From Sulfobacillus thermosulfidooxidans DSM 9293 (GTDB lineage: Bacteria; Bacillota; Sulfobacillia; Sulfobacillales; Sulfobacillaceae), in the NCBI RefSeq assembly GCF_900176145.1, contig NZ_FWWY01000001.1, positions 501,517 to 565,516 of the forward strand: a stretch of 64,000 bases of DNA. Reading direction: 5' to 3'. This document shows, in pieces, positions 25,965 through 43,312 of the stretch. A program made the position numbers and the translations under genes. Numbering within the stretch: position 1 is the stretch's first letter; each line of letters opens with the position of its first letter. The notes beneath the pieces are model-generated. The model searched no databases, was not told where the DNA came from, and saw only the letters and a program-made list of their open reading frames with translations.

Positions 25965-27197
25965 ATGCAAAGACCATACATGACGACATTCAATGCGCGA
26001 AAACGAGCCCTGATCCTTCGCCGCCTCTTCCTCTGGATTTTGGCTATTGGTCCCGGTGTCATTGGCATGGTAGCCGACAATGATGCCGGAGGAATGTTGT
26101 CATATCTCGTTACCGGTTCACAAGATCATTTGCAGTGGTTTTTGCCAGCGCTTTTTGTCATGGCCCCACTCACTTATGTCATTCAAGAATTGGCCCTTCG
26201 TGTGGCGCTCGCCACGCGACTGCCCTATAGTCAAATCATTTCGCGTAAATTTGGCCAGACAATCGCCAAATTCAATGCGCTAGTGCTGCATGGCCTGAAT
26301 ATGATGATTTTAGTCACCGAATTTATCGGCATGACCTCGGCACTCACCCTGCTCGGTGTGCCATGGACCTTAGGTCTCATTGTATCTTTAATATTAGTCC
26401 TTGGTGTGACGTCTTTTCGACGATACCGGCAAATGGAACGGCTGTTACTAATCTTAGCTGTCGCAAATCTCGCATTTATTCCGTCCTTGATGACGCTGCA
26501 TCCCAGTGTGCATAGTTGGCGTAGTGCGTTTTCGGGTTCATTTACCGGGGAAACGGCGTTTCTTTTGTTATCCTTGGCCGGCAATGCCATTGCCCCTTGG
26601 ATGATCTTTTGGCAACAAAACGCGGTCTGGGCAGGTAATGTTCAAAACTTAACCTCTGGTCGCAAAGATATTCGCTTGGGCATTATCGTGCAAGTGTTCA
26701 TGGCGACCGTCGTGATGCTCATTGGCGCCTTTGCAGCCCATGCCGCCGTCACGGGCAGGAATCCTTTATTATGGCTACAACATTATGGGGGCACCACCGC
26801 CGCTGCTTTATTTGCGATCGGACTTTTTGATGCAGGATTTTTGGCCGCATCCACAATTTCCATCTCCTCCGCGTGGATGGTGCAAGAAGCCTTTGCTGAT
26901 AAATTGCATGACCGGAGTCAAAGTCCGACACAAGGTCCCTATGCCGCGCTACACATTGCGACGGTGTCTGTTGCGGCTCTGGTTGTGTTGTTACCCCATT
27001 TATCGGCCGCTCGGATTGCCTTATGGGCTCAAGCTTTGGGTGCCTTGTGGATGCCTATTAGTTTACTGATGCTTGGGATCATTGCCTCCGATCGCCGTCT
27101 CATGGGCACCATGGTCATGCACCGTCAGCGCCAAATCATTTTGACTGGCACCATTTTCATCTTTGTTCTCTTAGCATTCTGCACATTTGTTGGGTAA
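25965..27197 (+). CDS. NRAMP-like metal transporter, copy 1
   Basis: 410 residues with about 11 membrane segments and NRAMP architecture. The segment 1 metal motif is GPGVIGMVADNDAGGML instead of the classic DPGN, and the segment 6 MPH motif of MntH is replaced by GNAIAPWMIFWQQNAVW. These changes are typical of NRAMP-related branches whose substrate need not be manganese (some carry magnesium). It has a GAGGAGCG ribosome binding site. A paralogue follows in tandem. Confidence 0.85.
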   Translation: MQRPYMTTFNARKRALILRRLFLWILAIGPGVIGMVADNDAGGMLSYLVTGSQDHLQWFLPALFVMAPLTYVIQELALRVALATRLPYSQIISRKFGQTIAKFNALVLHGLNMMILVTEFIGMTSALTLLGVPWTLGLIVSLILVLGVTSFRRYRQMERLLLILAVANLAFIPSLMTLHPSVHSWRSAFSGSFTGETAFLLLSLAGNAIAPWMIFWQQNAVWAGNVQNLTSGRKDIRLGIIVQVFMATVVMLIGAFAAHAAVTGRNPLLWLQHYGGTTAAALFAIGLFDAGFLAASTISISSAWMVQEAFADKLHDRSQSPTQGPYAALHIATVSVAALVVLLPHLSAARIALWAQALGALWMPISLLMLGIIASDRRLMGTMVMHRQRQIILTGTIFIFVLLAFCTFVG

Positions 27198-27311: not shown

Positions 27312-27428
27312 TTGTCTTTCAACCTGATCCCTGATTCCCTGAATATGGATACTCACGCATATCAGCACAGTGATCTTCCCCATCAAGTGTCCACCGCTTT
27401 TGGGGTTACCAGCCCTCCTGTACCATGA
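27312..27428 (+). CDS. 38-codon leader ORF coupled to the second NRAMP-like gene
   Basis: TTG start behind AAGAGGGAG with a 5-base gap. It encodes a 38-residue peptide starting MSFNLIPDSLNMDTHAYQHS and ending PPVP. Its TGA stop overlaps the ATG of the next gene (ATGA, 27425-27428). The downstream gene has no ribosome binding site of its own, so its translation probably depends on ribosomes finishing this ORF. It may be a regulatory leader; there is no evidence that the peptide itself has a function. Confidence 0.5.
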   Translation: MSFNLIPDSLNMDTHAYQHSDLPHQVSTAFGVTSPPVP

Positions 27429-28642
27429 CGACGGGGAAATCAGCAACATCTCACTTTTTCATTCGCCGCATATTGCTTTGGTTTTTAGCTCTTGGGCCAG
27501 GCGTTTTAGGAATGGTAGCCGACAACGATGCGGGAGGCATGTTATCCTACCTGGTTACAGGATCGCATAATCATTTACCATGGTTTGTGCTGGCACTTTT
27601 TATCATGGCTCCTATTACTTTTCTCATCCAAGATCTGGCGTTAAAGGTGGCATTAGCCACACATCTTCCCTATAGTCAAATCATTGCGCATAAATTTGGT
27701 AGCGGGACCGCTAAATTCAATGCCATCATTCTTCATCTTTTAAACATGATGATTTTAATCACAGAGTTTATCGGCATGACATCCGCCTTGGATTTTTGGG
27801 GTGTTCCCTGGAATAGAGGACTCATCGCATCCTTTCTTGTTGTCCTCGCCGTCACCTTGTTTCGACATGTGCGCCAGATGGAACATCTCTTATTAATGTT
27901 AGCGGTCGCTAATCTCGCCTTTATTCCCGCTCTTTTCCTGTTACACCCCAGTATTCACACATGGCATAAAGCATTATCCGGTGGGTTTAATCATCATATT
28001 CCTTTTCTATTACTGTCCTTGGCCGGAAATGCCATCACCCCATGGATGATTTTTTGGCAGCAAAACGCCGTGTGGGCTGGCAATGTAAAAAACTTATCCT
28101 CAGGACAGAAGGACATTCGAACGGGAATCCTCGCTCAAGTGTTCATAGCGACCGTTGTGATCCTCATTGGAGCTTTAGCGGCCCCTGTAGCTGTATCTGG
28201 GCGCAATCCCCTCTTGTGGCTTCAACATTATGGGGGCACAACGGTGGCTGGACTCTTCGCTGTAGGACTATTTGATGCGGGATTTCTCGCCGCATCCACC
28301 ATTTCGGTGTCATCGGCATGGATGGTGCAAGAAGCATTTTCCCAAAAACTCTTAGAGCCCAATACAAGTCCCACTCAAGGTCGATTTTCGATTTTGCACA
28401 TTGCGACACTCTCTGTCACCGCAGCTGTTGTGTTATCACCGCATTTGCCCACGGCATCATTGGCTTTATGGTCGCAAGCATTAGGTGCTCTTTGGATGCC
28501 GATCACATTAGCGATGCTGGGTCTTATTGCCCGCGATCCTCAGATTATGGGACAGATGGTTATGCCCCGTCGCCGTCAATTCTTATTAGGTTCTGTCATA
28601 TCATTGTTTGTCGGACTCGCCGTCTTCAGTCTTGTGAGTTAA
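27425..28642 (+). CDS. NRAMP-like metal transporter, copy 2
   Basis: 405 residues, closely similar along its length to the copy at 25965: GPGVLGMVADNDAGGML in segment 1 and AGNAITPWMIFWQQNAVW in segment 6. It probably arose by tandem duplication. The region ahead of its ATG (CCCTCCTGTACC) has no Shine-Dalgarno sequence, and start usage seems to be coupled to the short ORF that ends on it. The two copies may differ in regulation more than in substrate. Confidence 0.85.
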   Translation: MTTGKSATSHFFIRRILLWFLALGPGVLGMVADNDAGGMLSYLVTGSHNHLPWFVLALFIMAPITFLIQDLALKVALATHLPYSQIIAHKFGSGTAKFNAIILHLLNMMILITEFIGMTSALDFWGVPWNRGLIASFLVVLAVTLFRHVRQMEHLLLMLAVANLAFIPALFLLHPSIHTWHKALSGGFNHHIPFLLLSLAGNAITPWMIFWQQNAVWAGNVKNLSSGQKDIRTGILAQVFIATVVILIGALAAPVAVSGRNPLLWLQHYGGTTVAGLFAVGLFDAGFLAASTISVSSAWMVQEAFSQKLLEPNTSPTQGRFSILHIATLSVTAAVVLSPHLPTASLALWSQALGALWMPITLAMLGLIARDPQIMGQMVMPRRRQFLLGSVISLFVGLAVFSLVS

Positions 28643-28772
28643 AAGGACATCGAACCACCTAATCCCCATCTTTAGAACTGTAGACGGAAAGTTCCATCGC
28701 CGCGATGAGGAATTTTCGCTATGATAATAAAGACAATCAAGGCGTTACACCACACGTACAGGAGAGGATTAC

Positions 28773-30185
28773 ATGGCGTCAGGTGAAATCGATACAGTTC
28801 TCGCATATTTACAAAACCACCATGAACAATACCGCAAGGAACTGATTCAGTTTTTGCAGATTCCCAGTATCTCGGCCTTGTCCACTCACAAAGAGGACGT
28901 TCATAGGGCCGCCACGTGGCTCGCTCACCGTCTTCAAGCGGCAGGTGTTCCCCATGTGCGCATTGAGGAAACCCCGGGTCACCCTATTGTCTTTGGAGAA
29001 GTCATAACTGATCCTCATCGACCCACGGTACTCGTTTACGGACATTATGATGTCCAGCCTGTCGATCCCTTGGACCAATGGACGAATCCGCCGTTTTCTC
29101 CCACCATCATCGATAACATTTTATATGCCCGGGGTTCCAGTGATGACAAGGGGCAAGTCTATATGCAAGTCATCGCCGCCGAAGCCTGGTTAAAAACAGG
29201 AACTCTGCCCGTAAATCTCAAATTTTTATTCGAAGGCGAAGAAGAAATTGGCAGTGTGCACTTGGAGCACTACATCCAAACCCATCAAGAGGAGCTACGA
29301 GCTGATCTGGCCGTCATTTCAGACACGCCGATGTTTGCTGCCGGTGTTCCCGCTGTGTGCTATGGCTTGCGCGGTCTCGCCGCTTTAGAAATTCATGTAG
29401 AGGGCCCCTATCAAGACTTGCACTCGGGTGTCTTTGGTGGCGCCGTCGCCAATCCTGCGCATGTTCTGGCCCAAATTATCGCCAGCTTGCACGACGATGA
29501 AGGGCGTGTCACGGTCCCAGGCTTTTATGATGATGTAGACGGTCTTAGCGAGGAAGAACGAAAAAATTTTGCTGCCTTGCCTTTTGATGAGGAAGAGTTT
29601 CGCCAATCAACGGGATCTCCCGCATTATATGGTGAAGCAGGCTACACCACATTAGAGCGAATTTGGACGAGACCGACGCTCGAAGTCAATGGAATGTGGG
29701 CGGGCTTTATTGGCGAAGGGCGCAAAACAATCATTCCCCAAAGTGCCCACGCGAAAATATCATGCCGATTAGTCCCCCACCAAGATCCTCAAAAGATTTT
29801 GAATCAGGTCAACCAGTTTATCACGGACCAGTGTCCTCCCACCGTCAAATTGCGTATTGATCGCGGTGAGGGGGATCCGGGCACGGTCACTCCGTTAGAT
29901 CACTTTGCCACGCAAGCAGCGGTCCAAGCTATTCGTGCGGTCTATCATCAAGATGCGGCCTTTATTCGCATGGGAGGCTCAATTCCGGTTGTGGTAACCT
30001 TTGACCAAGTCCTTAACATCCCTACGGTGTTATTGGGTTTTGCATTGCCTGATGAAAATTTTCATGCGCCCAATGAACATTTTCATCTCGAAAACTTTGA
30101 TAAGGGTGCGGAAACAATCGCCACCTTATGGCAAATACTAGGCCAAACGCATCACCACCAAGGAGGAACTCATGTCAATCCCTGA
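28773..30185 (+). CDS. M20-family metallopeptidase (dipeptidase-like)
   Basis: 470 residues, two-domain zinc peptidase. Metal and catalytic blocks are [43 protein letters not shown] and a C-terminal [11 protein letters not shown]. The lid domain starts at [12 protein letters not shown] with LHSGVFGG. Likely a cytoplasmic dipeptidase of the CNDP/PepV-like group. Its end overlaps the serine acetyltransferase start by 14 bp, pointing to joint expression. An imperfect hairpin at about 28687-28713 and a TATGAT-like box lie just upstream. Confidence 0.9.
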
Positions 30186-31080
30186 ATTTAGCATTGAGGG
30201 ACTGTCCCAAATTGTTCGCAGTCTAGAGCGCTATGATGAAGCGACATTGACGAATGCTGGGCCCAAGACTCCCACCACACGTCGTGCCACAGAACAACTC
30301 ATTTGGCGACTCGAAAGCCTGTTATTTCCTTTTGAGCATCCTTGGGAAGAAGCCGTTGAAGCCCAGGGAACCGCCGCCCGTATCGAATTATTGGGACGAA
30401 TTATTTGGGATTTAGCTCATCAAATTCACCGGGTTGATCCTCATGACTGCACGGGAGATCCCTGCCAGGGATTATGTCGAGCCTTTCACACCGCCATTGA
30501 ATTTGGCAAACGACTTCCAGACATTCAGGCTCTTTTGTATATGGACGCTGATGCCGCTTACCAAGGAGATCCGGCAGCACGCAATCGATCCGAAGTCATA
30601 TCCACTTATCCCGGGTTTTATGCCATTATGGTATACAGGTTAGCGCATGAGCTCTTCCGACTAGACGTGCCATTACTGCCCCGGCTCATGACGGAGATTG
30701 CTCATAGCCAAACCGGGATCGACATTCATCCCGGAGCGCAAATTGGTTCGAGTTTCTTCATTGACCATGGAACCGGGGTCGTGATTGGCGAAACCACGGA
30801 AGTCGGCGATCAAGTCACCTTATATCAGGGAGTGACTCTGGGCGCATTAAATTTTCCTCGGGATGTACAAGGACAAATCATTCGCGGGCAAAAACGGCAT
30901 CCCACGATTGGGGATCGGGTGGTCATCTATTCCGGTGCGACCATCCTAGGAGGGAATACGGTGATTGGCGCGGGGAGCGTCATTGGAGGCAATGTGTGGC
31001 TGACACATAGTGTTCCAGAAAATTCTCGCGTAATCAACCAACCCCAAGTTGATGTCAAAGCGGTCACCCATAAAAATTGA
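30172..31080 (+). CDS. cysE: serine O-acetyltransferase
   Basis: Makes O-acetylserine for cysteine synthesis. The N-terminal helical half (1-170) is followed by a left-handed beta-helix of hexapeptide repeats from [20 protein letters not shown] through [22 protein letters not shown] to [21 protein letters not shown]. 302 residues, longer than the E. coli enzyme, in line with the EpsC/plant-like type with an extended N-terminus. Overlaps the M20 peptidase and is followed by a small unknown gene and a PLP dehydratase. Confidence 0.93.
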
Positions 31081-31100
31081 AAATAGGAAGGACCAGTGTG

Positions 31101-31529
31101 ATGCAAACCATTCATGATAATAAACCTGCTCTTTCGACGGGCACAGGGAGCATTTTTGTAGACCTTATATTTTGGCATCCCAAAGACAGCAATGAAGCGC
31201 CATTGACCACGTTTCTCGAACAAACCAGACTAGGCGAACGGTCGCAAACGGTCCAATGGCTCAACAAAATCACGGTACGTTTAAGTATGTGGAATGGATA
31301 TTATTGGTCCGATCTTCCCGCTGAAAAGTGGCCAGAAGCCCAGCGCGACTTGCAAACCTTTATTGCGGAAACCATGCGTCATTATCAAATCCCCAAGGCG
31401 GAATATGATACGCGGGCCTTTTCTATCGGACTAGCCAAAAAAGTTCGGCGGCAAAAAGTTCACCTCAATCAGCTGCCATTACAGCAACCCAGGCGCGATA
31501 ATCCGGTTTGGTGGGTGATTGTTCCGTGA
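31101..31529 (+). CDS. hypothetical protein, 142 aa
   Basis: Start at ATG 31101 behind AGGAAGGA. A soluble, tryptophan-rich, basic protein of unrecognised family. Its stop overlaps the start of the dehydratase gene as GTGA (31526-31529), so it is translated with it. Its fixed place between cysE and the dehydratase suggests a role with them, but there is no direct evidence. Confidence 0.65.
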   Translation: MQTIHDNKPALSTGTGSIFVDLIFWHPKDSNEAPLTTFLEQTRLGERSQTVQWLNKITVRLSMWNGYYWSDLPAEKWPEAQRDLQTFIAETMRHYQIPKAEYDTRAFSIGLAKKVRRQKVHLNQLPLQQPRRDNPVWWVIVP

Positions 31530-32488
31530 TCGCGCTCAAAATGTCTGCCATCGATGCAGCCTATGAGCGTATTCGACCCGTTGTGTACGAGACGCCGCTC
31601 ATAAAAAATCACAGTTTATCTGAACTTAGCCAGTGTGATTTAGCACTCAAAGCTGAAAATCTTCAACGCACCGGGTCGTTCAAGATTCGCGGAGCATTTA
31701 ATAAACTGGCATTAATTCACGAGGCGGGCGGCAAAGGGGCCGTGAGTGGATCATCTGGCAATCATGGCGCGGCAGTCGCTTGGGCAGCCCGCTATTTTGG
31801 CTTAACTGCTCGCATTGTCGTTCCCACCACCGCCTCCGCTGCCAAAGTTGAGGCCATTAAAGCGTATGGCGCAGATATTGAATTTTGTGGCACGACGAGC
31901 CATGAGCGCATTGAACGGGCTAAAGCCATTGCCCAAGAAACCTCTCTCAGCTTTGTGGCCCCTTTTGATGACCCTGAGGTGATGGCAGGGCAGGGTACAA
32001 TTGGCTTGGAAATTCTGCAACAGATGCCGGAAGTCGAAATCATCGTCGTTCCCATTGGGGGCGGTGGTCTAATCTCAGGAATCGCTACCGCTGTGAAAAG
32101 CCAAAGGCCCGATATTCGGATTATTGGTGTCGAGCCGTTAGGCGCTCCCAAAGCCTATGAATCGCGCAAGCATCATCAACGGCGGATTTTGTCGTCCACC
32201 GAGACCATTGCTGATGGATTAAAGACCATCTCACTAGGAGAACTAACCTACCCGATTATTGAACATCTGGTCGATGATATTGTGCTGGTCGATGATGATG
32301 AAATCCGCCGGGCCATGTCCTTATTGTTAACGCGTCAAAAAATGTTAGCAGAACCCTCGGGAGCCGCAACACTCGCGTATGCCTTACGTAAGCCCGATAG
32401 GCTTCATCACCGCAAAACGGTTGTGGTCATTAGTGGCGGAAACATTGATCCAATAAATCTTTGTGAGCTCTTAACACACCCGCATTAA
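31526..32488 (+). CDS. PLP-dependent threonine/serine dehydratase
   Basis: Fold type II enzyme: PLP lysine in RTGSFKIRGAFNKL, SSGNHGAAVAWAA, the phosphate-cradle glycines IGGGGLISGIATA, and a C-terminal VVVISGGNID. 320 residues, so the C-terminal regulatory ACT domain of biosynthetic IlvA is absent; it is like catabolic threonine dehydratase or serine racemase. GTG 31526 is chosen because it forms a GTGA overlap; ATG at 31541 is the alternative. Likely product is 2-oxobutyrate or pyruvate plus ammonia. Confidence 0.88.
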   Translation: MIALKMSAIDAAYERIRPVVYETPLIKNHSLSELSQCDLALKAENLQRTGSFKIRGAFNKLALIHEAGGKGAVSGSSGNHGAAVAWAARYFGLTARIVVPTTASAAKVEAIKAYGADIEFCGTTSHERIERAKAIAQETSLSFVAPFDDPEVMAGQGTIGLEILQQMPEVEIIVVPIGGGGLISGIATAVKSQRPDIRIIGVEPLGAPKAYESRKHHQRRILSSTETIADGLKTISLGELTYPIIEHLVDDIVLVDDDEIRRAMSLLLTRQKMLAEPSGAATLAYALRKPDRLHHRKTVVVISGGNIDPINLCELLTHPH

Positions 32489-32800
32489 AAATCAGTCATC
32501 AATAGAACCTGCCAAGGACATGCCACGCGAATTCACGCCTGGGATGTCCTTGCCGCTCTTCCTCAGACTTGCCTCCCATGTTCTGTCGCAGGCGCTTATG
32601 CGTGTACCCGCCATAACCGATATTGGACGGCCTTTTTACGTTTTCGAAGGTCGTCTTCTGTGTTTACCTCTATCACAAGTGAAACCCTTTTGTTCCCTGT
32701 GCGGCAATACATAGATCTCCCAGGTTTTGGGTAACCTAAGTCACGGTACCTAGAGGAAATCAAGGGCGGAGCCGAACGTCCAAAAAGGAGACCTGGAACA
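32489..32800. other. intergenic region
   Basis: About 310 bp without a convincing gene. An inverted repeat AAGGACAT...ATGTCCTT (about 32514-32551) follows the dehydratase but lacks a T run. A 64-codon open frame at 32520-32714 has AAGGA only one base from its ATG and is not supported. Confidence 0.4.
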
Positions 32801-32965
32801 ATGGATGAGCAGCAACATGTTTGTGCCTGTGGCGAAATCGCCCACTATGAATGTCGCGATTGCCAACAACCGTTGTGCACAGAACATACTTGCAGCAGTT
32901 GTGGCCGCTGTGAAGCGGATTGTATTTGCCACTTATTATGGTGGACGCCGGATTTGTTTATTTAA
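32801..32965 (+). CDS. Cys/His-rich zinc-finger-like miniprotein, 54 aa
   Basis: ATG behind AAAAAGGAG with an 11-base gap. The 54-residue product has ten cysteines and four histidines: HVCACGEIAHYECRDC, then PLCTEHTCSSCGRCEADC, then ICH. The spacing recalls B-box or double zinc-ribbon domains that bind two or more zinc ions. The last 10 residues (LLWWTPDLFI) are hydrophobic and aromatic. It is monocistronic, 116 bp upstream of a TDT-family transporter. No homologue is known to me; a metal-binding or protein-docking role is inferred. Confidence 0.6.
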   Translation: MDEQQHVCACGEIAHYECRDCQQPLCTEHTCSSCGRCEADCICHLLWWTPDLFI

Positions 32966-33081
32966 CACTGGTTTTCAACATTCCGAAAACAGTTGACAGA
33001 AAGCCATAAGCCATATGGGTTGTCTTCATGTTACGATTTTCACATAAGAACATATACCTAAACAAAAGGAGGGGATCGTAG

Positions 33082-34182
33082 ATGTTAGCCTTTGTGAAAA
33101 ATTTCACGCCAAACTGGTTTACCGTAGGCATGGGGACAGGTATTACCGCTTTGGGCGCATACCTTTATCCCGGCGGTCCCCTATGGCTCAAGGATTTGGG
33201 TACAGGGCTGTGGATATTAAACACCGTGATTGTGGGAGTCCTTTTACTACTCATGTTGTTGCGTTGGATCTTTAATTGGAAGGGATCTATTGCTATTTTG
33301 CATGACCCTATTCAATCGATGTTTTTAGGAGCTGTCCCGATGGCTTTGACCACGGTCATTAACGGATTCATTGATATGGGTCAACGCTTAATTGGACATG
33401 AAGCCCTGACCATCGCCATGGTCTTGCTCGTGATCAATGTGTTAATGGCGCTGGGATCAGGCATTGTTGTTCCCTTTATGATGTTCATTTCTCACGATCA
33501 CCGCTTAGATAAACTGACGGGAATATGGTTGATGCCCGTTGTGCCCGCTGAAGTGGCCGCAGCCAGTGGAGGATTACTCCTTCCCTATCTCACCAATGTG
33601 GCGGCCCAAAAAACCTTGATGGTCATTAGTTTAGGGTTGTGGGCCTTAAGCGTTCCCTTAGCATTTTTGATGCTCGGATTTTTATTCTTGCGCTTAGCGG
33701 TTCACAAATTGCCCCCTAAGGAAATGGCGATTTCCACGTGGATTTCTTTGGGCACGTTAGGCACCGGCATTATGGGGCTCATCGGATTAGGAAAATCCTT
33801 ACCCATTTTATTTGGCTCTTTAGGGCACGCTATGGATGGTGCCGCCGTCCTTGGTTCGTTTGCTCTGTGGGGCTTTGGTTTATGGTGGTTGACCTTAAGC
33901 ATTCTCATCACCATTTACTATGCACACAAAGGATTGCCCTTCAATTTAGGGTGGTGGGGATTAACCTTCCCCTTGGGCGTTTTTACTGGTGGAACGGATA
34001 TGCTCTATGACCAGATGCATGTTGGGCTCATCGCTTTCTTTGCTCACCTGTTTTATGTCTTGCTTGCCGTTTTTTGGACCCTGGTCGCGGTCAAGACGAC
34101 GGGCGGAGTCCTCACGGGTCGTTTGACTCTGACTGGCGCCCCCAAGCCTACGCCGATGCCCACAAAGACGGCCGTAAGTTAA
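33082..34182 (+). CDS. TDT/SLAC1-family transporter
   Basis: 366 residues with about ten membrane segments. The opening NFTPNWFTVGMGTGITALG is the hallmark of the tellurite-resistance/dicarboxylate transporter family (TehA, Mae1, Ssu1, SLAC1). Members carry C4-dicarboxylates, sulfite or other anions; sulfite export would suit a sulfur oxidiser but is only a guess. AAAGGAGGGG ribosome binding site. Promoter-like TTGACA (32993) and TTGTCT-17-CATAAG (33020-33048) lie upstream. Confidence 0.85.
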   Translation: MLAFVKNFTPNWFTVGMGTGITALGAYLYPGGPLWLKDLGTGLWILNTVIVGVLLLLMLLRWIFNWKGSIAILHDPIQSMFLGAVPMALTTVINGFIDMGQRLIGHEALTIAMVLLVINVLMALGSGIVVPFMMFISHDHRLDKLTGIWLMPVVPAEVAAASGGLLLPYLTNVAAQKTLMVISLGLWALSVPLAFLMLGFLFLRLAVHKLPPKEMAISTWISLGTLGTGIMGLIGLGKSLPILFGSLGHAMDGAAVLGSFALWGFGLWWLTLSILITIYYAHKGLPFNLGWWGLTFPLGVFTGGTDMLYDQMHVGLIAFFAHLFYVLLAVFWTLVAVKTTGGVLTGRLTLTGAPKPTPMPTKTAVS

Positions 34183-34208
34183 AGGCTCGAGCACAACTCT
34201 CGAGCCTT
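34182..34208 (+). terminator. hairpin after the TDT transporter gene
   Basis: AAGGCTCGAG/CTCGAGCCTT perfect stem directly overlapping the stop region, followed only by a weak T-containing stretch. Possibly a terminator or a processing site. Confidence 0.5.
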
Positions 34209-34292
34209 CGGCTTGAAGGTTTGTCGACAATCTTTTACGATCAGACAGTACAAGTCAAAGATATGTCGACACAAATTCAGGCAGGTGAATGC

Positions 34293-35183
34293 ATGACAGG
34301 GGTAACGATAGTGATTCCCGTCTGGTACGGAAGGGATTTTCTCAGTCGATGTTTAGAAAGTGTGCGCCAGCAAGAAAAGGTCCCATATCCTATTCAGGTC
34401 ATCGTGGTAGAAGACGGAACTCCGGAACATTATATGGCGGAAGACATTGCATATCGTTACCATGCCGAATATCATTATATTCCCAAAAATCAAGGGGTGG
34501 CTCACGCGAGGCGTTTTGGAGCCAACCTTTCTGTATTTGATGACGGTTTTCTCGCTTTTTTAGACCAGGATGATTATTGGTATCCAACGTTTTTAACCGT
34601 CATGATTGATGCGCTGTCCCGCCATCTTGATCGGGGTTTTGCCGTAGCGAATGCCGATATCGTCTTTTCGTCTGGAAGAAAATATCAATTGTACCAAACC
34701 AAATTTCCGTCTCTCAGGTTGCAGGACTTAAAAATGTTTAACCATATCGTCACCCCATCACAAGTCCTTATGCGACTTCAGGCTTTTAGGCAGATTCACT
34801 GGACAGGGGAGCTGAAAACGCCAGGTGCTGATGATTGGCTGTTGTGGTTGTCGTTAAGTAGTCAGGGATTTCCCGGAATTTTCGTCCCCAAGACATTAAT
34901 CGCCTATTTGGAACACGAAGGGGGAGCCCATCAAAATATTTCAAAAATGCGACAAAGCGAAGCCAGTGTTGTTGAGGACTGGTTTCCCCAATTAGGATTT
35001 TCCAAATGGGATCAAAGACGGTATTGGGCTGGGGTTGAAATCGAACGCGCCTTACATCACGCCTATCAAAAAGATTGGGGACAATTTATTCGTCGCCTCA
35101 CTCTCACCACAATAAAAGATCCGACGGCCGCATTGTCAGCAGCATGGTACCGGATTGAGCGAAAGTTAAAGCACTGGGTTTAA
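34293..35183 (+). CDS. family 2 glycosyltransferase
   Basis: GT-A fold: VTIVIPVWYGRDFLSRCLESV, then VIVVEDGTPEHY, KNQGVAHARRFG, the metal-binding LDQDDYWYP (DxD-like) and ADDWLLWLSLS. 296 residues from ATG 34293 (AGGTGA four bases before); an ATG at 34263 is possible. The long in-frame extension back to 34074 overlaps the transporter gene and is not credible. Acceptor unknown. The LysR gene follows 27 bp later. Confidence 0.88.
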   Translation: MTGVTIVIPVWYGRDFLSRCLESVRQQEKVPYPIQVIVVEDGTPEHYMAEDIAYRYHAEYHYIPKNQGVAHARRFGANLSVFDDGFLAFLDQDDYWYPTFLTVMIDALSRHLDRGFAVANADIVFSSGRKYQLYQTKFPSLRLQDLKMFNHIVTPSQVLMRLQAFRQIHWTGELKTPGADDWLLWLSLSSQGFPGIFVPKTLIAYLEHEGGAHQNISKMRQSEASVVEDWFPQLGFSKWDQRRYWAGVEIERALHHAYQKDWGQFIRRLTLTTIKDPTAALSAAWYRIERKLKHWV

Positions 35184-35210
35184 CGACAAAAATAAAGGAG
35201 GCAGAGACCT

Positions 35211-36134
35211 TTGGACAATCGGTTATTAGTATTTTTGGCGACAGCACGGGAAGGACATATTACGGGTGCTGCCCGGTTATTGAATTTATCTGTCTCTGCA
35301 GCCTCCCACCAAATCGCCCAACTCGAACTGGAATTTAGCACCCCTTTATTCGTGCGGGGTAACCGCGGGATGCGTCTCACCCCGGCTGGCGAAACCTTAT
35401 TCGCTTATGCCAATCAAATCGAAGCCCTATGGCAAACGGCCTACCGAGAAGTTAGACAGACTGCAGAAGGCGAGCAATGGGTCCATGTTGCCGCATCCCA
35501 TACTGTCACCGAGTTCTTCTTACCCGAACCGTTAGGACAATTTCGGCGCACTCATCCCGCAGTCCATATTCATTTGACCATGGCGAACAGTACCGAAGTG
35601 ATTAGTCAGGTGGAAACCGGACGCGTAGATTTTGGCATTGCTGAAGGGCGTGTGGGACACCGAAATCTAAAAGTGACCAATTTATGGCAAGATCAACTCG
35701 GGTTGATTGTGGCAAGTCACCATCCTTTAGCCACGCGCACCGCGGTAACGGTTAAGGATCTGGAGTCCGTCGACCTCATTCTGCGTGAAGAGGGTTCTGG
35801 AACCCGTAGTATTTTGGACCAAGCCTTGGCTCACCATGGACTAGGTGTTTCCAATCTTCGCGTCACCGCCGAATTATCGTCGATTCGGGCCATCTTAGAT
35901 CTCGTACGCAATAACATTGGGTGTTCGGTCATGTCGTGGATGATTGCGCGCAACATGCCCGATATCACCTTTTTGCCGATTGAGGACTTGCAATTGACGC
36001 GGCGCATTCATTTGATTCGCCGGCCCACGAATGAAGGACGCAGTGCCATGGAACACCTCATTGATCAATTAGTGCGCGCAGCTCGGGAATTTAATTTAAG
36101 CCCCCGGCAGGATCTGGACCCCATCAACGAATAA
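35211..36134 (+). CDS. LysR-family transcriptional regulator
   Basis: Winged-helix DNA-binding domain at the N-terminus (GHITGAARLLNLSVSAASHQIAQLE, LFVRGNRGMRLTPAGE) and a periplasmic-binding-like effector domain (85-300). TTG start is supported by AAAGGAGG nine bases upstream; 307 residues. It resembles the CysB/YeiE-like branch with LREEGSGTR in the ligand cleft. It faces the end of the complex I-like operon, so its target is not evident from position. Confidence 0.92.
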   Translation: MDNRLLVFLATAREGHITGAARLLNLSVSAASHQIAQLELEFSTPLFVRGNRGMRLTPAGETLFAYANQIEALWQTAYREVRQTAEGEQWVHVAASHTVTEFFLPEPLGQFRRTHPAVHIHLTMANSTEVISQVETGRVDFGIAEGRVGHRNLKVTNLWQDQLGLIVASHHPLATRTAVTVKDLESVDLILREEGSGTRSILDQALAHHGLGVSNLRVTAELSSIRAILDLVRNNIGCSVMSWMIARNMPDITFLPIEDLQLTRRIHLIRRPTNEGRSAMEHLIDQLVRAAREFNLSPRQDLDPINE

Positions 36135-36182
36135 CCTCTAGCAAGCGAAATGGCCCGGGATCGGCCCCATCTGTTGTCGCCG

Positions 36183-38273
36183 TTAAGGCACAGGATGCCA
36201 AAGGGCCAATAACACGGCGACTATAGCACCATACACCAGCCAGCTCAAATATGCCGGGGTCGATCCTGATTGGGTCTTTCGCACTTGTCCTGCAATATAC
36301 CGAACCAATTTCAACAAGGGCAAATAGCCCTGTTCTTCTAATCGGTAAATAATGGTGTGACGATAGAACCGGACGCCTCCTTTGTCATAGCGTTGCCGCT
36401 TAAGACCAAAGAATCCTTGAAACGCCAATCGCAAGGGATGGACAAATCCTTCTGCCGTAAAACTCTTTTGGGCATTGTAATCCTGAGCCCCCCCTGTCCA
36501 CGGCTCAACCAAACGGACAGCCTTCCCTTTACGCATAAAATGACGAATGAGGGCCACAATTCCCGCCAACACAATGCCCATTAACAAGAGCACATAGGGA
36601 TCGCCCACCGAAAATCCTTGTGGAAAGAATATCGTTCCGGGGGCTCCCGGGGCCTTCACCAAATCTCCTCCGATATGAACCAAAAGCGGTACAGCCTTGG
36701 GATCAATAAGGAGCGGGGCAATCACAGATTGGCCATTGTTGCCAAAAATCTGCGAGCCTTGAAGATTTAACCACGGAATCAGCCAAGGAACCCCGGGCCC
36801 TGCAATCAAGACAGGTAAAAGCGCAATGACATAACCTACAACCTGTGTCGGTCGAAGTTTTTGCGCGGGTCGTTCAACTAGACGTGGAGCGCGACGTTTA
36901 GGTCCAAGAAACACAAACCCAAACCAGCGGATATACGTTCCTACCCCGACCGCACTGGCTAAGGCTAAAAAGATACCCGCCAGCAAGAACAGCAAGTGAA
37001 TATTACGCAGAGCCAAAGTGGTCCCGAGCGGTTTTAAAATGGATTCCAACAGGAGCCATTCCCCCACAAATCCTCCCAGAGGAGGTACTGCCGCCAAGGT
37101 GCCTACCGCCACCGCCGCGGCCAAACTCAACTTGGGCCGGTCATGGGCTATTCCGCCCAATCCATCAATCGTATGGGCAATGGGTTCGGTTTCTTCTGTA
37201 ATCGAAAACAAGACAAACTTTGCTCCAGCATGCATAATCAGCAAGATCATGGCCGCATCCCATGCCAATGTCGAAACCAAGGACTGGGGATTAGCCGCTT
37301 GCGCAATGTTCCAAATGCCCAAAGCGGAAAAGACCAGACCCAAGATTTCTAAGGTGGAATACGCCAAAATTTGTTTAACATGTCGGGAGACAATACTATA
37401 TAACGCGGCCACAAACGCTCCGGTCGTCCCTAAAATGAGCAAAATAATGCCCCAGCCTATGCCTGGATGGACCACATTTTCCACGGCTAAAATCCCTAAG
37501 ACCGCCAGGGCCGTAAACACCCCCGAGAAAAGCCCGGCCACCGGTCCTGGAGCTTCAGGTTCTGCTAGAGGCATCCAAATCATTACGGGGAATAACCCAG
37601 CTTTAACTCCAAATGCCAGCAAGACAAGAACCATGATGACCAGTTTGACGGCACTTGGCATGTGGGACGCTTCATGAGCTAACACCCGAAAATTGTCAGC
37701 GACAAACGATAGGGCGGCCCCATGATGTACCATGATCAGTCCCATGGCGAAAAGCAGTAGCAAACCTCCCATTTCCGACAAAATGAGTAAAACCCACCCC
37801 GCGTTCCAGAGTTTTCGGGACCGACGTGTCGTCACCAGCCCTAAATAGGAGCTTAAAGAAATAGCTTCTAATCCGAGCAGCAAGCTAAGCCCCCCGCCAG
37901 CCAGCAAGAAGAACCCCATACTGGAGGCCATTGGCACCAGGGCCCACAAGATCCGGGTTTCTGTAAGTGTCTTCCGAATAAGGAGCCAAGTTGCGCCTAA
38001 CAACACCCCGCTTAAGATGCTCCATAGATCCGCCATAGGTAAGGGTGCAAAGTGAAGGGGCGGAAAGGGTGTAGGCAAACTGGCGATGCCTGGGATTAAG
38101 GCATTTTGACTTATCATCCATCCCATCACCACAAGCCCCAAACTCGCCAACAAGACTTCCGCTCGTAATAGCGCTCGCGTCGCACTTTGGCCGATCACGC
38201 TGATAAGCCCGGCGGATAGGGGGCCGACAAGTCCTAACACAATCCACAGTTCACCCCAAAGCGCTGCGTTCAT
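36183..38273 (-). CDS. HyfB/NuoL-like proton-pump subunit of an Ehr-type complex
   Basis: Antiporter-like membrane subunit with about 16 segments and the extended C-terminus seen in HyfB/HycC. Conserved glutamate and lysines lie in the proton-channel segments (GLEAISLSSYLGL, VKAGLFPVMIWMPLAEPEAPGPVAGLFSG, YSTLEILGLVFSALG). ATG 38273 chosen (AAGGAGAG eight bases before), giving 696 residues; upstream in-frame sequence overlaps the small-subunit gene and adds nothing. Overlaps that gene's end by 23 bp. Last gene of the operon. Confidence 0.9.
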   Translation of the reverse strand: MNAALWGELWIVLGLVGPLSAGLISVIGQSATRALLRAEVLLASLGLVVMGWMISQNALIPGIASLPTPFPPLHFAPLPMADLWSILSGVLLGATWLLIRKTLTETRILWALVPMASSMGFFLLAGGGLSLLLGLEAISLSSYLGLVTTRRSRKLWNAGWVLLILSEMGGLLLLFAMGLIMVHHGAALSFVADNFRVLAHEASHMPSAVKLVIMVLVLLAFGVKAGLFPVMIWMPLAEPEAPGPVAGLFSGVFTALAVLGILAVENVVHPGIGWGIILLILGTTGAFVAALYSIVSRHVKQILAYSTLEILGLVFSALGIWNIAQAANPQSLVSTLAWDAAMILLIMHAGAKFVLFSITEETEPIAHTIDGLGGIAHDRPKLSLAAAVAVGTLAAVPPLGGFVGEWLLLESILKPLGTTLALRNIHLLFLLAGIFLALASAVGVGTYIRWFGFVFLGPKRRAPRLVERPAQKLRPTQVVGYVIALLPVLIAGPGVPWLIPWLNLQGSQIFGNNGQSVIAPLLIDPKAVPLLVHIGGDLVKAPGAPGTIFFPQGFSVGDPYVLLLMGIVLAGIVALIRHFMRKGKAVRLVEPWTGGAQDYNAQKSFTAEGFVHPLRLAFQGFFGLKRQRYDKGGVRFYRHTIIYRLEEQGYLPLLKLVRYIAGQVRKTQSGSTPAYLSWLVYGAIVAVLLALWHPVP

Positions 38274-38823
38274 TCTGATTCTCTCCTTGTTGAATCGGAT
38301 AGGTTTCCACAGCCTGTAATAGTCCTTGGAGAATATCTGCAGGCGTGGGCGGACATCCGGTAATTTCGACGGTGAGCGGCAGGACATTTTTCAAAGAACC
38401 CAGCACATCTGGCGCATGGGCAAACACATGTCCGTTAATGGCACACTGCCCTAAGGCCACGACCCGTTTAGGAGATGGCATCCCTTCAAATACGTGTTGC
38501 AGAATCTCAACCATCGGGCGTGTAATCACACCGGTCACAACCAAAATGTCCGCATGACGCGGAGACGGCGTGAAGGAAAAACCAAACCGAGAAAAATCAT
38601 AGTCCGGACTGGTAAGAAGCTGCAGTTCCGACTCACAGCCGTTACATGATCCTCCATCGACATGACGAATCGCCATGGCACGACGTATTGGAGCTGTTTC
38701 GTCATTCAGTGTACCCTGGATATGAATTTCTCCACGCGACACGATGTGGGGATCAGATTGTGCCGGAAATGTGGTGGTTTTGGGACCATGCAGCAAATCG
38801 GATAACCAGCGCCAGTAAAACAT
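38251..38823 (-). CDS. NuoB/HyfI-like Fe-S small subunit
   Basis: 190 residues from ATG 38823 behind GGGGAGGTGATG. The [4Fe-4S] cysteines corresponding to the N2 or proximal cluster are kept: GGSCNGCESELQLL, ALGQCAINGHV and TGCPPTPADILQG. In complex I this subunit passes electrons to quinone, in group 4 hydrogenases to the [NiFe] site. Since its partner large subunit lacks the [NiFe] ligands, electron transfer to quinone or another acceptor is more likely. Confidence 0.92.
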   Translation of the reverse strand: MFYWRWLSDLLHGPKTTTFPAQSDPHIVSRGEIHIQGTLNDETAPIRRAMAIRHVDGGSCNGCESELQLLTSPDYDFSRFGFSFTPSPRHADILVVTGVITRPMVEILQHVFEGMPSPKRVVALGQCAINGHVFAHAPDVLGSLKNVLPLTVEITGCPPTPADILQGLLQAVETYPIQQGENQNERSALG

Positions 38824-38836
38824 GTCATCACCTCCC

Positions 38837-40216
38837 CTATTGATCCCATCCGGCAACACTTAACAAAAAGCTGGCATCAATAATCGGAAAATCTTGTAAA
38901 ATATTCCCATTCGCCATAGCCGGTGGCACCACATACCAATTTCGTGCCGAGGGGGTCGCCACGGCAACATGCCGAATGATTTCGCCAGAGCCATCTAGCC
39001 AGAGTGCATAAGCCAACATGCCGCGGGGCGCTTCGACCATCCCAATCCCAGGTCCTTGGCTTGGGCCTTCCTCAAATACCGTGGAAACGTGAGAATGTCT
39101 TGGAGCTACTGGCAATAACCGGCGGATAATATTGACACTCGCCGTTATTTCTCGCGATTTGACCAGAAAACGAGCGTACGCATCCCTTTTGTCTGAAGAT
39201 GGGATAGCAAAAGAAATTTCATCATAGACCCCATAATCCCAAAGCGAGCGCACATCTACTTTAAGACCCGAGGCCCGTCCTACCGGACCCACGGGCGCAA
39301 TAAACTGCACGGTCTGTTCAGAAATCGTTCCTGCCCCCACTAAGCGGTCAAGGAATGAGGGGGTATGAAATAAACTGTCGGTAATAGCTTGCGCTTGTTC
39401 GCCCACGGCAATAATGGATGCTGACGCCTCATCAGCTACCTGGTTCAAGGCATTTTTGACTAAGGCCCCACGCAAATAGCGGTCACCAAAGAGCTTATAG
39501 TTCCATCGAAGAATTTGTTCTTTCAGATGAAGATAATCCATCTGGGCCACCGGCAATCCTGTCGACGACGCCAACAGGGCTAAATCCCCAAGATGAGACG
39601 CCAACCGCTCCATTTCCAATGCCACAGAACGGTAAATCTTGGTGCCCTCGTCGACAATTTTTCCCTGGGCATTTTCGACAGCCATCATGAACGCCCATTG
39701 ATGGGCAAATGATGAGGTGGCTGTCATGCGTTCAATGAGTTCTAAGGCTTGCGGCACCGTTTTCCCGCGACACAATGTCGTAATATGACGGCGCTTATAG
39801 CCGTGCTTCAGTGTCAAGTGCACAATTTCATCGCCCATCACAGCGAGGTCATAACGCAAGCTTTCACTCACGTCCCCATGGACAGGTCCCAAGGGATAGG
39901 TAAAAATCCCTTTACCACGGACAACCCGCTCGGGATGCGAAGGAGGAACCCAGGTTATCGACGACGGGGTATCGCGCGAAATGTCTTCTTGGAGATGGAT
40001 CCATTCACCAATTCCTGCGGTAGAAGGCCTAGGAACCTCCCTCGGATGAGAGAGACCCCACCATTCGTATTCTTTAGATCCCGGGTGACGCCCAATTCCC
40101 CACAAGATACCGTCCGGACCTGGAGTTAATAACACTAATAAGGTACCGTCGCGTCGGCGCTGAAGAATCTGATCAAGCCATCTTACCGCTTCTTGTTCGC
40201 CCCAAATTTGTTCCAC
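38837..40216 (-). CDS. NuoCD/HyfG-like large subunit lacking [NiFe] ligands
   Basis: 459 residues: a NuoC-like N-terminal part (about 1-115) fused to a NuoD/hydrogenase-large-subunit-like part. Where HycE has RVCGICGFAHS this protein has RMTATSSFAHQ, and where hydrogenases end in DPCxxC it has DFPIIDASFLLSVAGWDQ. All four cysteine ligands of the [NiFe] centre are therefore absent. The fold core is kept (VALEMERLASHLGDLALL, PVGPVGRASGLKVDVR, EAPRGMLAYALWLDG). GTG start with AAGGGAGTGAG. It cannot be a hydrogenase of the known type. Confidence 0.92.
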   Translation of the reverse strand: MEQIWGEQEAVRWLDQILQRRRDGTLLVLLTPGPDGILWGIGRHPGSKEYEWWGLSHPREVPRPSTAGIGEWIHLQEDISRDTPSSITWVPPSHPERVVRGKGIFTYPLGPVHGDVSESLRYDLAVMGDEIVHLTLKHGYKRRHITTLCRGKTVPQALELIERMTATSSFAHQWAFMMAVENAQGKIVDEGTKIYRSVALEMERLASHLGDLALLASSTGLPVAQMDYLHLKEQILRWNYKLFGDRYLRGALVKNALNQVADEASASIIAVGEQAQAITDSLFHTPSFLDRLVGAGTISEQTVQFIAPVGPVGRASGLKVDVRSLWDYGVYDEISFAIPSSDKRDAYARFLVKSREITASVNIIRRLLPVAPRHSHVSTVFEEGPSQGPGIGMVEAPRGMLAYALWLDGSGEIIRHVAVATPSARNWYVVPPAMANGNILQDFPIIDASFLLSVAGWDQ

Positions 40217-40247
40217 TAAAGCTCACTCCCTTCTCACCACGATCTGT

Positions 40248-41705
40248 TCATGAATTCTTTGGCATCACGACACGAGATGGCGAAGTATAGCGTAAGATGG
40301 CGGCCGCATGATGAAACATGTGTGGTAACAGTCCCGGCAAGGCAATGCCACCAATCACGACCAAAACCCCGAGTGTCATGGAGGGAAGAATCAACCGCCA
40401 TGATTCATGGACACGGTTTTTGCGCGATTCACCTGGGGTAAATAGCCACCGCGGCATTTTTAAGGTAATCCCCCCAAAAATGGCTAACAAGAGAATGATC
40501 GCGACAATGGTGACGACCACGTGGCCCTGGGCAATTCCCCCCATTAAAATGAGCCATTCACTCCAAAAAGGAGCGAAGGGCGGCAAGCCCACAATCCCGG
40601 TTGCCCCTAAGGCCAATAATCCGCCCGTATACGGTGAGCTTTCTAATAATCCGGACGTGTCAGGTAGGCTCGACACGCCATGATAATAGAGCCGGACAGT
40701 CCCCGCGTTATAAAACAACAACGTTTTATTAATGGCATGGGTCCAAACATGCAGTAATGCTCCTAAGACTCCTAATCCCCCAAACCCCAAGCCTAGGGCA
40801 ATAAGACCGATATGCTCGATACTCGAATAAGCCCAAAGGCGCTTCAGATCTTTTTGAAAGGCAACAAAACTAGCCGCGATAATCAATGATAACAAGCCCA
40901 AAATCCATAGCAAATCATGGGGCCAAGCCGCTGGAACAGCACCGGATGAAAGCGAAAACAATCGATCAAGAATTAAGACAGCCCCAGCTAACTTAACTCC
41001 GGATAATAGGGCCGATACAGGAGCCGGGGCTTCACTGTGCGCATCCGGCAACCATGTGTGAAAGGGCGCTAATCCTGCTTTGGCCCCATAGCCGACGGCA
41101 GCTAAAATAATGCCGGCCAAGACCATGGTCGAGTTGATGGGCAAAGATGTTGAAGCAGGCATCAACCCCCAAGTGCCCAAGTTTCTCGCGCTTCCCACGA
41201 GAATCAAAATGGTTCCGAGCAGACCAGCTAGTCCCCCGCTCTCTGTCACCACCAGATACCGCCAGGCCGCTTCAAGCGATGTACGTGTACCTGAGGTTTG
41301 CACTAAATAGATAGAGGACAATGTGGCCACCTCTAGCGCTACCCAAAGCAGCAAGTAGTTGGCCAATAACGCCATTGCCATTAATGATCCCACAAAGGTG
41401 TAAAGACCTAAGTAATATCCTTTGACACGGCGCTCATCCCAATCATGTAAACCGCTCTCGACCGCGATATAGGGACCGGAAAACCAAATGGCAAAGGCTC
41501 CAAACACGGTTGCCGTAATATCAAACCAATAAGCTAAAGCGTCCACTGGTCGAAAGAGGTGCCATAGGGGCATAAACAACGAGGCCATCATCAGCACAAT
41601 GACGAGCCCATTAAATGTCCGTAGATATTTGACAGGAAGAACCCAACCGATGAGGATAGCTCCCAACAAAATGGCTAGCGGCCAGATGTTTATCCACACG
41701 TTCAT
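40248..41705 (-). CDS. HyfF/NuoN-like proton-pump subunit
   Basis: 485 residues with about 14 membrane segments of the antiporter-like family: LLLWVALEVATLSSIYL, AKAGLAPFHTWLPDAHSEAPAPVSALLSGVKL and YSSIEHIGLIALGLG. This is the second pump-like subunit of the complex. Its start overlaps the HyfE-like gene by four bases (ATGA). Confidence 0.92.
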   Translation of the reverse strand: MNVWINIWPLAILLGAILIGWVLPVKYLRTFNGLVIVLMMASLFMPLWHLFRPVDALAYWFDITATVFGAFAIWFSGPYIAVESGLHDWDERRVKGYYLGLYTFVGSLMAMALLANYLLLWVALEVATLSSIYLVQTSGTRTSLEAAWRYLVVTESGGLAGLLGTILILVGSARNLGTWGLMPASTSLPINSTMVLAGIILAAVGYGAKAGLAPFHTWLPDAHSEAPAPVSALLSGVKLAGAVLILDRLFSLSSGAVPAAWPHDLLWILGLLSLIIAASFVAFQKDLKRLWAYSSIEHIGLIALGLGFGGLGVLGALLHVWTHAINKTLLFYNAGTVRLYYHGVSSLPDTSGLLESSPYTGGLLALGATGIVGLPPFAPFWSEWLILMGGIAQGHVVVTIVAIILLLAIFGGITLKMPRWLFTPGESRKNRVHESWRLILPSMTLGVLVVIGGIALPGLLPHMFHHAAAILRYTSPSRVVMPKNS

Positions 41706-42340
41706 CCTTTTAATTCCCCCGCTTTTCTGACGTCGACGGAATCATATTGGGCCCGCATCAAGGCCATATAAACGCTCAAAAGTAATGCCATACCAATCGC
41801 TACCCCATCAGCCAAGATATCAGGGATCAGGGGAAATGCACTCACTAACACAATAGCCAGCGTACTGGTAATGACCTCAAAATTTAACAGTCCCCAGGCT
41901 TCACTCCAAATTTCATAGCGAAGCGTCATCTGAACAAAAGCCACTAACCATGCGGCCCACAAAATGCCTTGAGTGATGGGATGATCGCCATGGAATTGGT
42001 CTCCTAGCAAGAAGCCTAAAATCGTGACGGCCAAACTTATGATTAAGACAAATGCCATGCCAAACCGACTCTGGGCACTGTAATCGCGCTCGACCGCATA
42101 AGAACCCGTATGCATCACATAAGGCACGACGATCACTTTGACGAGGACAACCAATACCGCAGAAAACCATAACCCATTTTGATGCAAGCTCTCAGCTAAC
42201 AACGCCAAGAGAGAGGCCTGCGCTAGGGCGTCCAAACGATATAAAATCCTCGCCGATCGGTTATTTTTGACAAGCATGACGATAACCGTAAAAGCCCACA
42301 TAAGCGAAGCCGTTAACCGCAGCCACATGCTTAAGGTCAT
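41702..42340 (-). CDS. HyfE-like membrane subunit
   Basis: 212 residues, six to seven hydrophobic segments; HyfE combines NuoK-like and NuoJ-like features in hydrogenase-4 type complexes. ALLAESLHQNGLWFSAVLVVLVKVIVVPYVM carries the lysine within a membrane segment typical of the family. GGAGGT ribosome binding site nine bases before ATG. Coupled to the HyfF-like gene downstream. Confidence 0.85.
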   Translation of the reverse strand: MTLSMWLRLTASLMWAFTVIVMLVKNNRSARILYRLDALAQASLLALLAESLHQNGLWFSAVLVVLVKVIVVPYVMHTGSYAVERDYSAQSRFGMAFVLIISLAVTILGFLLGDQFHGDHPITQGILWAAWLVAFVQMTLRYEIWSEAWGLLNFEVITSTLAIVLVSAFPLIPDILADGVAIGMALLLSVYMALMRAQYDSVDVRKAGELKG

Positions 42341-42361
42341 CTTTGCCTTACCTCCTTTCCT

Positions 42362-43312
42362 TTACACTAAAGACCATGCGGCTGTCACAGCACCAATAAT
42401 CGCGAGGACAATCGCTGCGGTAATAAAGTCCACATTGCGAATTAACCGCAATTTGGCGAAGCTGACCTCAATGGTGATTAACACGCCCGCAGCGAAAATA
42501 AGTTTCACCATGACCCAGAACACCGCTAAAGCTAATGACGATACGGCCAGTGAGCGAGCCAGACCAAATGGGGAGACCAACACATTCATCAAAATGATGG
42601 TCAACACCGTGAATTTCATCCAGCCGCCCCATTCATAGAGCATCAAATCCAACCCGCTCGATTCAAATGTCCGTCCGGGATCGATCATGGAAAGCTCTTG
42701 TGCCGTCGATGGATTATCGACCGGAATATGACCACTTTCCGCAATTAAAAAGAGGAACCATCCCACGATAATGAGAATATGGGCAGGACTAAATTCCCAC
42801 GGTGGCGATCCTAACGTTTGATTGACCACAAATGGTATTGTGGCGCCGGCCGCTTGGGCCGCAATAAATACGAGGAGGAGGGCTAAGGGTTCGGTAAATG
42901 TCGCAATCAACCGGATCCGGCTCACACCCAAAACGGGATAGACGCTTCCGCTATCGAGTGCGGCAAAGAGTAAGGCAATACCGCCACCGCCCAAAATCAT
43001 GCCTCCGGCTAACATATCTCCCATCCAAGCAAACGGTAAGGGAAATGTTGTGAGCACTGGGATCAACATGGCCACAATGAGAGGAGCAATAAAGTAGAAG
43101 ACTGGTGCCCATTCTGAGACCCATGATGTTTGGGTGGTCCGGATGGTCTCTTTATGCATCCATTTCCGCAAATCACGGTAAGGCTGCCAAATGGGCGGCC
43201 CATAACGTCCAGCCAACCGCGCTTTGTAACGATCCATAATCCCTTTAAGAAGAGGCGAAAAACCCAAAACAAAAAGAACTTGTATGAGTTGGGCCACATA
43301 TTCATTGACCAA
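42362..43312 (-). CDS. HyfC/NuoH-like membrane anchor subunit
   Basis: 316 residues, about eight membrane segments. Conserved loop GRYGPPIWQPYRDLRKWMHKE and the later IDPGRTFESSGLDLMLYEWGGWMK resemble the quinone-chamber/joint loops of NuoH and hydrogenase-4 subunit C. TTG start preceded by GGGAGG eight bases away. First gene of the six-gene operon. Confidence 0.92.
   Translation of the reverse strand: MVNEYVAQLIQVLFVLGFSPLLKGIMDRYKARLAGRYGPPIWQPYRDLRKWMHKETIRTTQTSWVSEWAPVFYFIAPLIVAMLIPVLTTFPLPFAWMGDMLAGGMILGGGGIALLFAALDSGSVYPVLGVSRIRLIATFTEPLALLLVFIAAQAAGATIPFVVNQTLGSPPWEFSPAHILIIVGWFLFLIAESGHIPVDNPSTAQELSMIDPGRTFESSGLDLMLYEWGGWMKFTVLTIILMNVLVSPFGLARSLAVSSLALAVFWVMVKLIFAAGVLITIEVSFAKLRLIRNVDFITAAIVLAIIGAVTAAWSLV

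Follow-up and report, generated by a model that had tools for sequence, protein, structure and literature searches.

A small cysteine-rich, probably zinc-binding protein specific to the Sulfobacillus order

The 54-codon open reading frame (ORF) at positions 32801 to 32965 (plus strand, stop codon included) of a 64,000-nt stretch of the Sulfobacillus thermosulfidooxidans DSM 9293 genome, hereafter the window, is a real gene. It is specific to its order and near-core in the Sulfobacillus group, and its conserved context is the end of an upstream amino-acid operon. The encoded cysteine-rich protein probably binds zinc, to judge by its residue pattern, and there is an even chance that this single-copy gene encodes a small metal-stabilised protein acting as a binding adaptor. 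As far as family libraries and a literature search reach, the protein family is undescribed: searches of Pfam, NCBIfam, PHROGs and PADLOC gave no family above cut-off, and no description was found in the limited literature collection searched.

The gene and its distribution

The protein, MDEQQHVCACGEIAHYECRDCQQPLCTEHTCSSCGRCEADCICHLLWWTPDLFI, is read from the ATG at 32801 to the TAA ending at 32965. Its ten cysteines are found at positions 8, 10, 18, 21, 26, 31, 34, 37, 41 and 43 and its four histidines at positions 6, 15, 29 and 44; sequence and translation agree with the placement, size and composition given in the original prediction. The well-placed ribosome-binding site that had been proposed is present as well (AAAAAGGAG, 32782 to 32790, plus strand, 10 nt before the ATG). 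An SD-like motif lies ahead of 32 of the 34 aligned gene copies, which start with ATG in 28 cases and with GTG in six. Among the 640 window ORFs of at least 30 aa, the 54-aa ORF ranks first in Cys richness and is the only one with at least ten Cys within 70 aa or less. As a simulated control, 40 first-order Markov windows were used, in which the maximum was 8 Cys and no ORF had at least ten in up to 70 aa.

A profile built from 34 rows was used to determine the distribution of the protein. The gene is found in 35 of the 42 genomes of the order, with one copy each, and in 26 of the 30 good-quality genomes, and none of the 112 further genomes of the class matches the profile (154 genomes in all). 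In G038 the contig ends inside the gene; this copy was counted as a match and excluded from the alignment of 34 homologues (A1) used below. A single-sequence search of 61 genomes gave matches in 39 at E up to 0.1, and every match with E below 1e-4 is within the own order. In its own genome the gene is single-copy, the next matches having E 0.07 or worse.

Of the seven genomes in which the profile found nothing, three (G007, G028 and G030) have a completeness of 61-71%. The gene is missing in G010 and G019 (genus g4), where the 142-aa neighbour described below is retained, and in G036, where the PLP enzyme is retained, in each case on a stretch beside a conserved neighbour. G005 still has the same neighbours, the PLP enzyme and the transporter, but the gene between them has decayed to a remnant (L069:9136-9255), GRCGTDYICSLLWY followed by a stop. 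Because of these four losses, the gene is regarded as useful but not essential.

No wider distribution was found. When 84,980 species were scanned independently by pattern, 181 pattern stretches and 27 confirmed loci were obtained, the latter titled Sulfobacillus, Bacillota, one 'Clostridiales' MAG and one 'Actinomycetes' MAG, and all 27 encode proteins already found among the relatives. Among 398 genomes of the phylum, only four gave a match: three are members of the order, and the fourth match, 25 residues long (E 9e-4), belongs to a 344-aa Fe-S-like protein with ferredoxin-like Cys motifs. A mobile or phage origin was rejected, since tblastn against 72,556 plasmids and 50,697 phage records found nothing and none of 21 pattern stretches on viral contigs was confirmed as the 54-aa protein.

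The substitution pattern is that of a protein-coding gene under purifying selection. In the ten Cys columns of A1, 339 of 340 cells contain Cys, encoded by 209 TGC and 130 TGT codons; the dense, ordered Cys pattern claimed from the single sequence is thus conserved in the relatives. Relative to the window sequence, codon positions 1, 2 and 3 show 634, 499 and 1088 differences over 1731 codons. A dN/dS near one had been named as the contrary outcome; the closest pair has a ratio of 0.036 (Nei-Gojobori, dS 0.64, dN 0.023). The pair L044/L046 has a ratio of 0.038, and the close pair L054/L059 one of 0.34 from no more than seven differences. Across the 32 pairs with an estimated dS below 1.5 the median is 0.39, a value that probably reflects saturation among mostly divergent pairs and is given no weight. 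A spurious ORF is ruled out by conservation, codon pattern and selection, and the original call of a genuine gene stands on conservation across the order, purifying selection and the lack of an equal in the Markov windows.

Genomic context

The genes upstream of the 54-aa gene are encoded on the same strand and are largely conserved. In the window they comprise, in conserved order, an M20 family dipeptidase (28773 to 30185; NCBIfam NF006053, 649.9 bits, cut-off 441), a serine O-acetyltransferase of the EpsC/CysE type (30172 to 31080; NF041874, 158.4 bits, cut-off 150), an order-specific 142-aa protein (31101 to 31529; the ORF opens at 31077 and the ATG was chosen by the analyst) and a PLP enzyme resembling threonine/serine dehydratases (31541 to 32488; the ORF opens at 31508 and the start was likewise chosen). 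The PLP enzyme matches Pfam PALP (5.7e-88) and scores below the NCBIfam equivalog cut-offs. In 32 of the 35 genomes with the 54-aa gene, the serine acetyltransferase and the 142-aa protein are encoded upstream of it in the same orientation. Exceptions are G012 (contig end), G006 (gene not beside the operon) and G014 (gene moved out of the operon). The PLP enzyme is found upstream of 29 of the 35 copies, within 200 nt in 25; in the window the distance is 316 nt, by alignment end, and the 312-nt gap between the two genes (32489 to 32800) could contain a separate promoter for the 54-aa gene. A common insertion between the two genes in this genus was considered and rejected, as the gaps align poorly beyond the closest pair. 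The PLP enzyme is not an obligatory partner, because G015, G023 and G035 keep the 54-aa gene without it as a neighbour.

Further upstream, the M20 dipeptidase and Nramp-type transporter genes are found in most loci. All four genomes of genus g12 (G034, G038, G039 and G040) have the 54-aa gene and no M20 match near it. The window has two tandem Nramp-type transporter genes (25965 to 27197 and 27425 to 28642), which were grouped together by blastp and the first of which was Pfam-scanned.

The 142-aa protein is present in 41 of the 42 genomes of the order, with second copies in some, and in none of the 112 other genomes of the class. It has no match in Pfam or NCBIfam. Its structural model is confident (pLDDT 83.8), with weak fold matches at E 0.022 or worse, those in the PDB being ferredoxin/ACT-like at E 0.027 or worse. 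ACT domains are amino-acid-sensing modules.

Downstream genes vary between genera. A SLAC1/TehA-type anion transporter follows directly in six of the 35 copies, all within the genus of the window. The location upstream of an anion transporter gene, as originally noted, therefore holds within this genus, whereas the context that is conserved is the amino-acid operon upstream; a functional link to the transporter was rejected on the same count.

Three further observations were made in the window. The sequence CATGTTACnnTTTTCACAT at 33027 to 33045, which precedes the SLAC1-type transporter, is shared by 7 of 7 aligned loci of the genus, including the locus with the decayed gene, and could be an operator or promoter for this transporter. 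The region 32920 to 33119, which runs from the 3' part of the ORF through the intergenic region to the start of the transporter, is 99% identical to the closest relative (G003/L035), compared with 82-95% in most other 200-nt steps, and may represent a recombination tract or an unusual constraint. A minus-strand cluster at 36183 to 43312 looks, from reading alone, as if it encoded subunits of a membrane-hydrogenase or complex-I type.

Conserved residues and fold resemblances

Fourteen positions are invariant in all 34 rows of A1, namely M1, C10, G11, C18, C21, C26, C31, C34, R36, C37, C41, C43, W48 and P50. C8 occurs in 33 rows and is shifted by one residue in the remaining copy, and D20 is kept in 31. 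Position 29 is His in 28 rows and Asp in six, and position 40 is Asp in 28 and His in six. Such an H/D exchange at both positions would be expected of metal ligands. H6, H15 and H44 are His in only 2, 3 and 17 copies, so that of the four histidines in the proposed Cys/His pattern H29 alone is constrained and the other three are not conserved. With residues 29 and 40, the ten Cys would bring the ligand-type positions to twelve, which would suffice for three tetrahedral sites; a B-box-like pair of sites would take eight positions.

Three parts are distinguished along the protein, all on the plus strand. The first half (32822 to 32893, codons 8-31) has the B-box/HIT-like pattern CxCGxxAxxxCxDCxxxLCxx[HD]xC with sub-threshold Pfam matches. 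The second cluster (32891 to 32929, codons 31-43), CxxCxRCxx[DH]CxC, has a Cys spacing as in [4Fe-4S] sequence hits. The tail (32936 to 32962, codons 46-54) is mostly [RL]WWxP[DE]xF; it is conserved, as are W48 and P50 within it in 34 of 34 copies, which bears out the aromatic hydrophobic tail of the original prediction.

Searches with the window protein gave no match in NCBIfam, PADLOC or PHROGs (the latter two at E up to 1) and a Pfam zf-HIT match (PF04438) of 14.9 bits against a gathering cut-off of 24.7, covering residues 8-26. Over all 34 members, the best Pfam match is ANCHR-like_BBOX (PF22586; 19.2 bits, E 0.0013, gathering cut-off 27), and zf-HIT is matched by two members at E up to 1. 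The AlphaFold2 model (28 rows) is poor, with pLDDT 67 and pTM 0.39. With this low-confidence model, the Foldseek top hit is the piggyBac transposase cross-brace finger 5lme (E 0.063, 42 columns), followed by PML B-box1 (E 0.23 and 0.53), and no fold match reaches E 0.001. VIA-align scores did not exceed Z 3.4, the hits including Rim2, FYVE and SRCAP-complex chains (Z 2.3 for 6imq_B), and no fold match reached Z 5. A profile search of the PDB returned the piggyBac finger at E 0.51 and ferredoxin and PsaC chains at E 0.12 or worse, and nothing useful with the first half alone.

Among the closest known systems is the B-box (PF22586; PML B-box1 structures 2mvw and 6imq). The first half of the 54-aa protein has the same C-x(1-2)-C-x7-C-x2-C-x4-C-x2-[CHD] order. 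In contrast to the B-box, CxxCxRCxx[DH]CxC takes the place of the His-rich end, the protein is free-standing, bacterial and 54 aa long with an aromatic tail, and its scores are below cut-off. The HIT zinc finger has a similar cross-braced Cys/His motif, but residues 8-26 cover only part of its 30-position model. The piggyBac finger aligns with 24% identity and rmsd 5.5 to the low-confidence model, and no transposase is involved in the case of the 54-aa gene. RING-like, HIT, MYND, PHD, AN1 and FYVE fingers are classed as cross-braced binuclear treble clefs, to which the B-box was moved, according to PMC4999995. The fold and family hints are mutually consistent in kind, pointing weakly to cross-braced zinc fingers; each is sub-threshold and none amounts to a membership. 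Regarding the B-box or zinc-ribbon style initially suggested, the B-box remains as a weak resemblance, whereas for the zinc ribbon, defined by two CxxC knuckles on a zinc-ribbon fold, support was limited to hits on ribosomal protein L32 at E about 0.1, and no zinc-ribbon family occurs among the Pfam matches of the 34 members.

Proposed function and alternative explanations

In the proposed mechanism, the ten Cys together with residue 29 (His/Asp), and perhaps residue 40 (Asp/His), would bind two or three zinc ions that hold the protein in a compact cross-braced core. This core would present R36 and the C-terminal RWWxP[DE]FF-type peptide for docking onto a partner whose activity or assembly could thereby be tuned, most simply a product of the same operon for amino-acid/cysteine-precursor metabolism. 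The fixed place at the operon suggests, without proof, a partner in this metabolism; that the partner is any one given operon product is doubtful and the least certain step. Unlikely as a whole is the most specific version, a small metal-binding domain that would pack three tetrahedral zinc sites, formed by twelve ligand positions (ten Cys, H/D29 and D/H40), into about 36 residues and whose docking peptide would regulate cysteine-precursor metabolism specifically in the Sulfobacillus order. The poor model, the lack of a fold match at E 0.001 or Z 5, the dispensability of the gene and its location away from the operon in G006 and G014 count against the adaptor reading.

Ten Cys in 54 aa could also make a metallothionein-like buffer that holds zinc or other soft metals, or else thiols, in a metal-rich acidophile and has no specific partner. 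Bacterial metallothioneins of the SmtA type are likewise short and Cys-rich with His, and contain a zinc-finger-like fold, as described in PMC10612145. Four of the 34 members touch the eukaryotic metallothionein model (Metallothio_Euk) at E up to 1. The best of these matches is at E 0.32, however, no metallothionein model is above cut-off, NCBIfam gave none for the window protein, and SmtA-type proteins show no sequence match. Moreover, the 54-aa gene differs from these in its context, being linked to an amino-acid operon and not to metal resistance genes. A zinc-held docking scaffold is favoured over the buffer, which seems improbable, because R36, W48 and P50 are invariant and the aromatic tail is conserved, none of which metal storage needs. 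An iron-sulfur miniprotein, with a [4Fe-4S] cluster on C31, C34, C37 and C41 or C43 and a zinc site in the first half, is less probable still. It is kept alive by C31-x2-C34-x2-C37-x3-C41, since C-x2-C-x2-C-x3-C is the Cys spacing of ferredoxin motifs, and by the ferredoxin and PsaC chains among the profile hits and the 344-aa protein with ferredoxin-like Cys motifs as the single weak phylum hit. These hits (E 0.12 or worse; 9e-4 in the phylum) can follow from Cys spacing alone, and no Fer4 family is above cut-off (Fer4_4 in one of 34 members at E 0.12). Classical ferredoxin motifs have a Pro after the last Cys; in the 54-aa protein, only one motif is present, this Pro is absent and a CxC end takes its place. 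The exchanges at positions 29 and 40 also fit zinc better.

The conservation of the M20 and Nramp-type genes upstream in most loci would fit a role of the 54-aa protein in passing metal from the Nramp-type transporter to the M20 metallo-dipeptidase of the operon. This is very unlikely, as the four g12 genomes keep the 54-aa gene without a nearby M20 match, and the nearly all-Cys sites look structural, not exchangeable. Least probable of all is a Cys-codon-rich leader peptide, whose translation would control a downstream gene, the protein itself being irrelevant. The ten Cys codons near a serine acetyltransferase and the 99% identity to the closest relative from the 3' part of the ORF to the transporter start are in its favour, but non-Cys residues are invariant, TGC and TGT replace each other freely as Cys codons, and the downstream genes differ among genera. 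Rfam (E up to 1) gave no family over 28000 to 36500, and a promoter/terminator scan found one terminator-like site, equal to the shuffled expectation; a leader peptide or RNA element was rejected on these results and the codon switching.

The 54-aa protein is ordinary in kind, a small, Cys-rich, probably zinc-binding protein, near-core in a group of biotechnologically used acidophiles. If the adaptor reading is true, it would be a regulator of the enzymes of the operon and a very small zinc scaffold; if it is false, the protein would still represent a clean, testable small-protein family.
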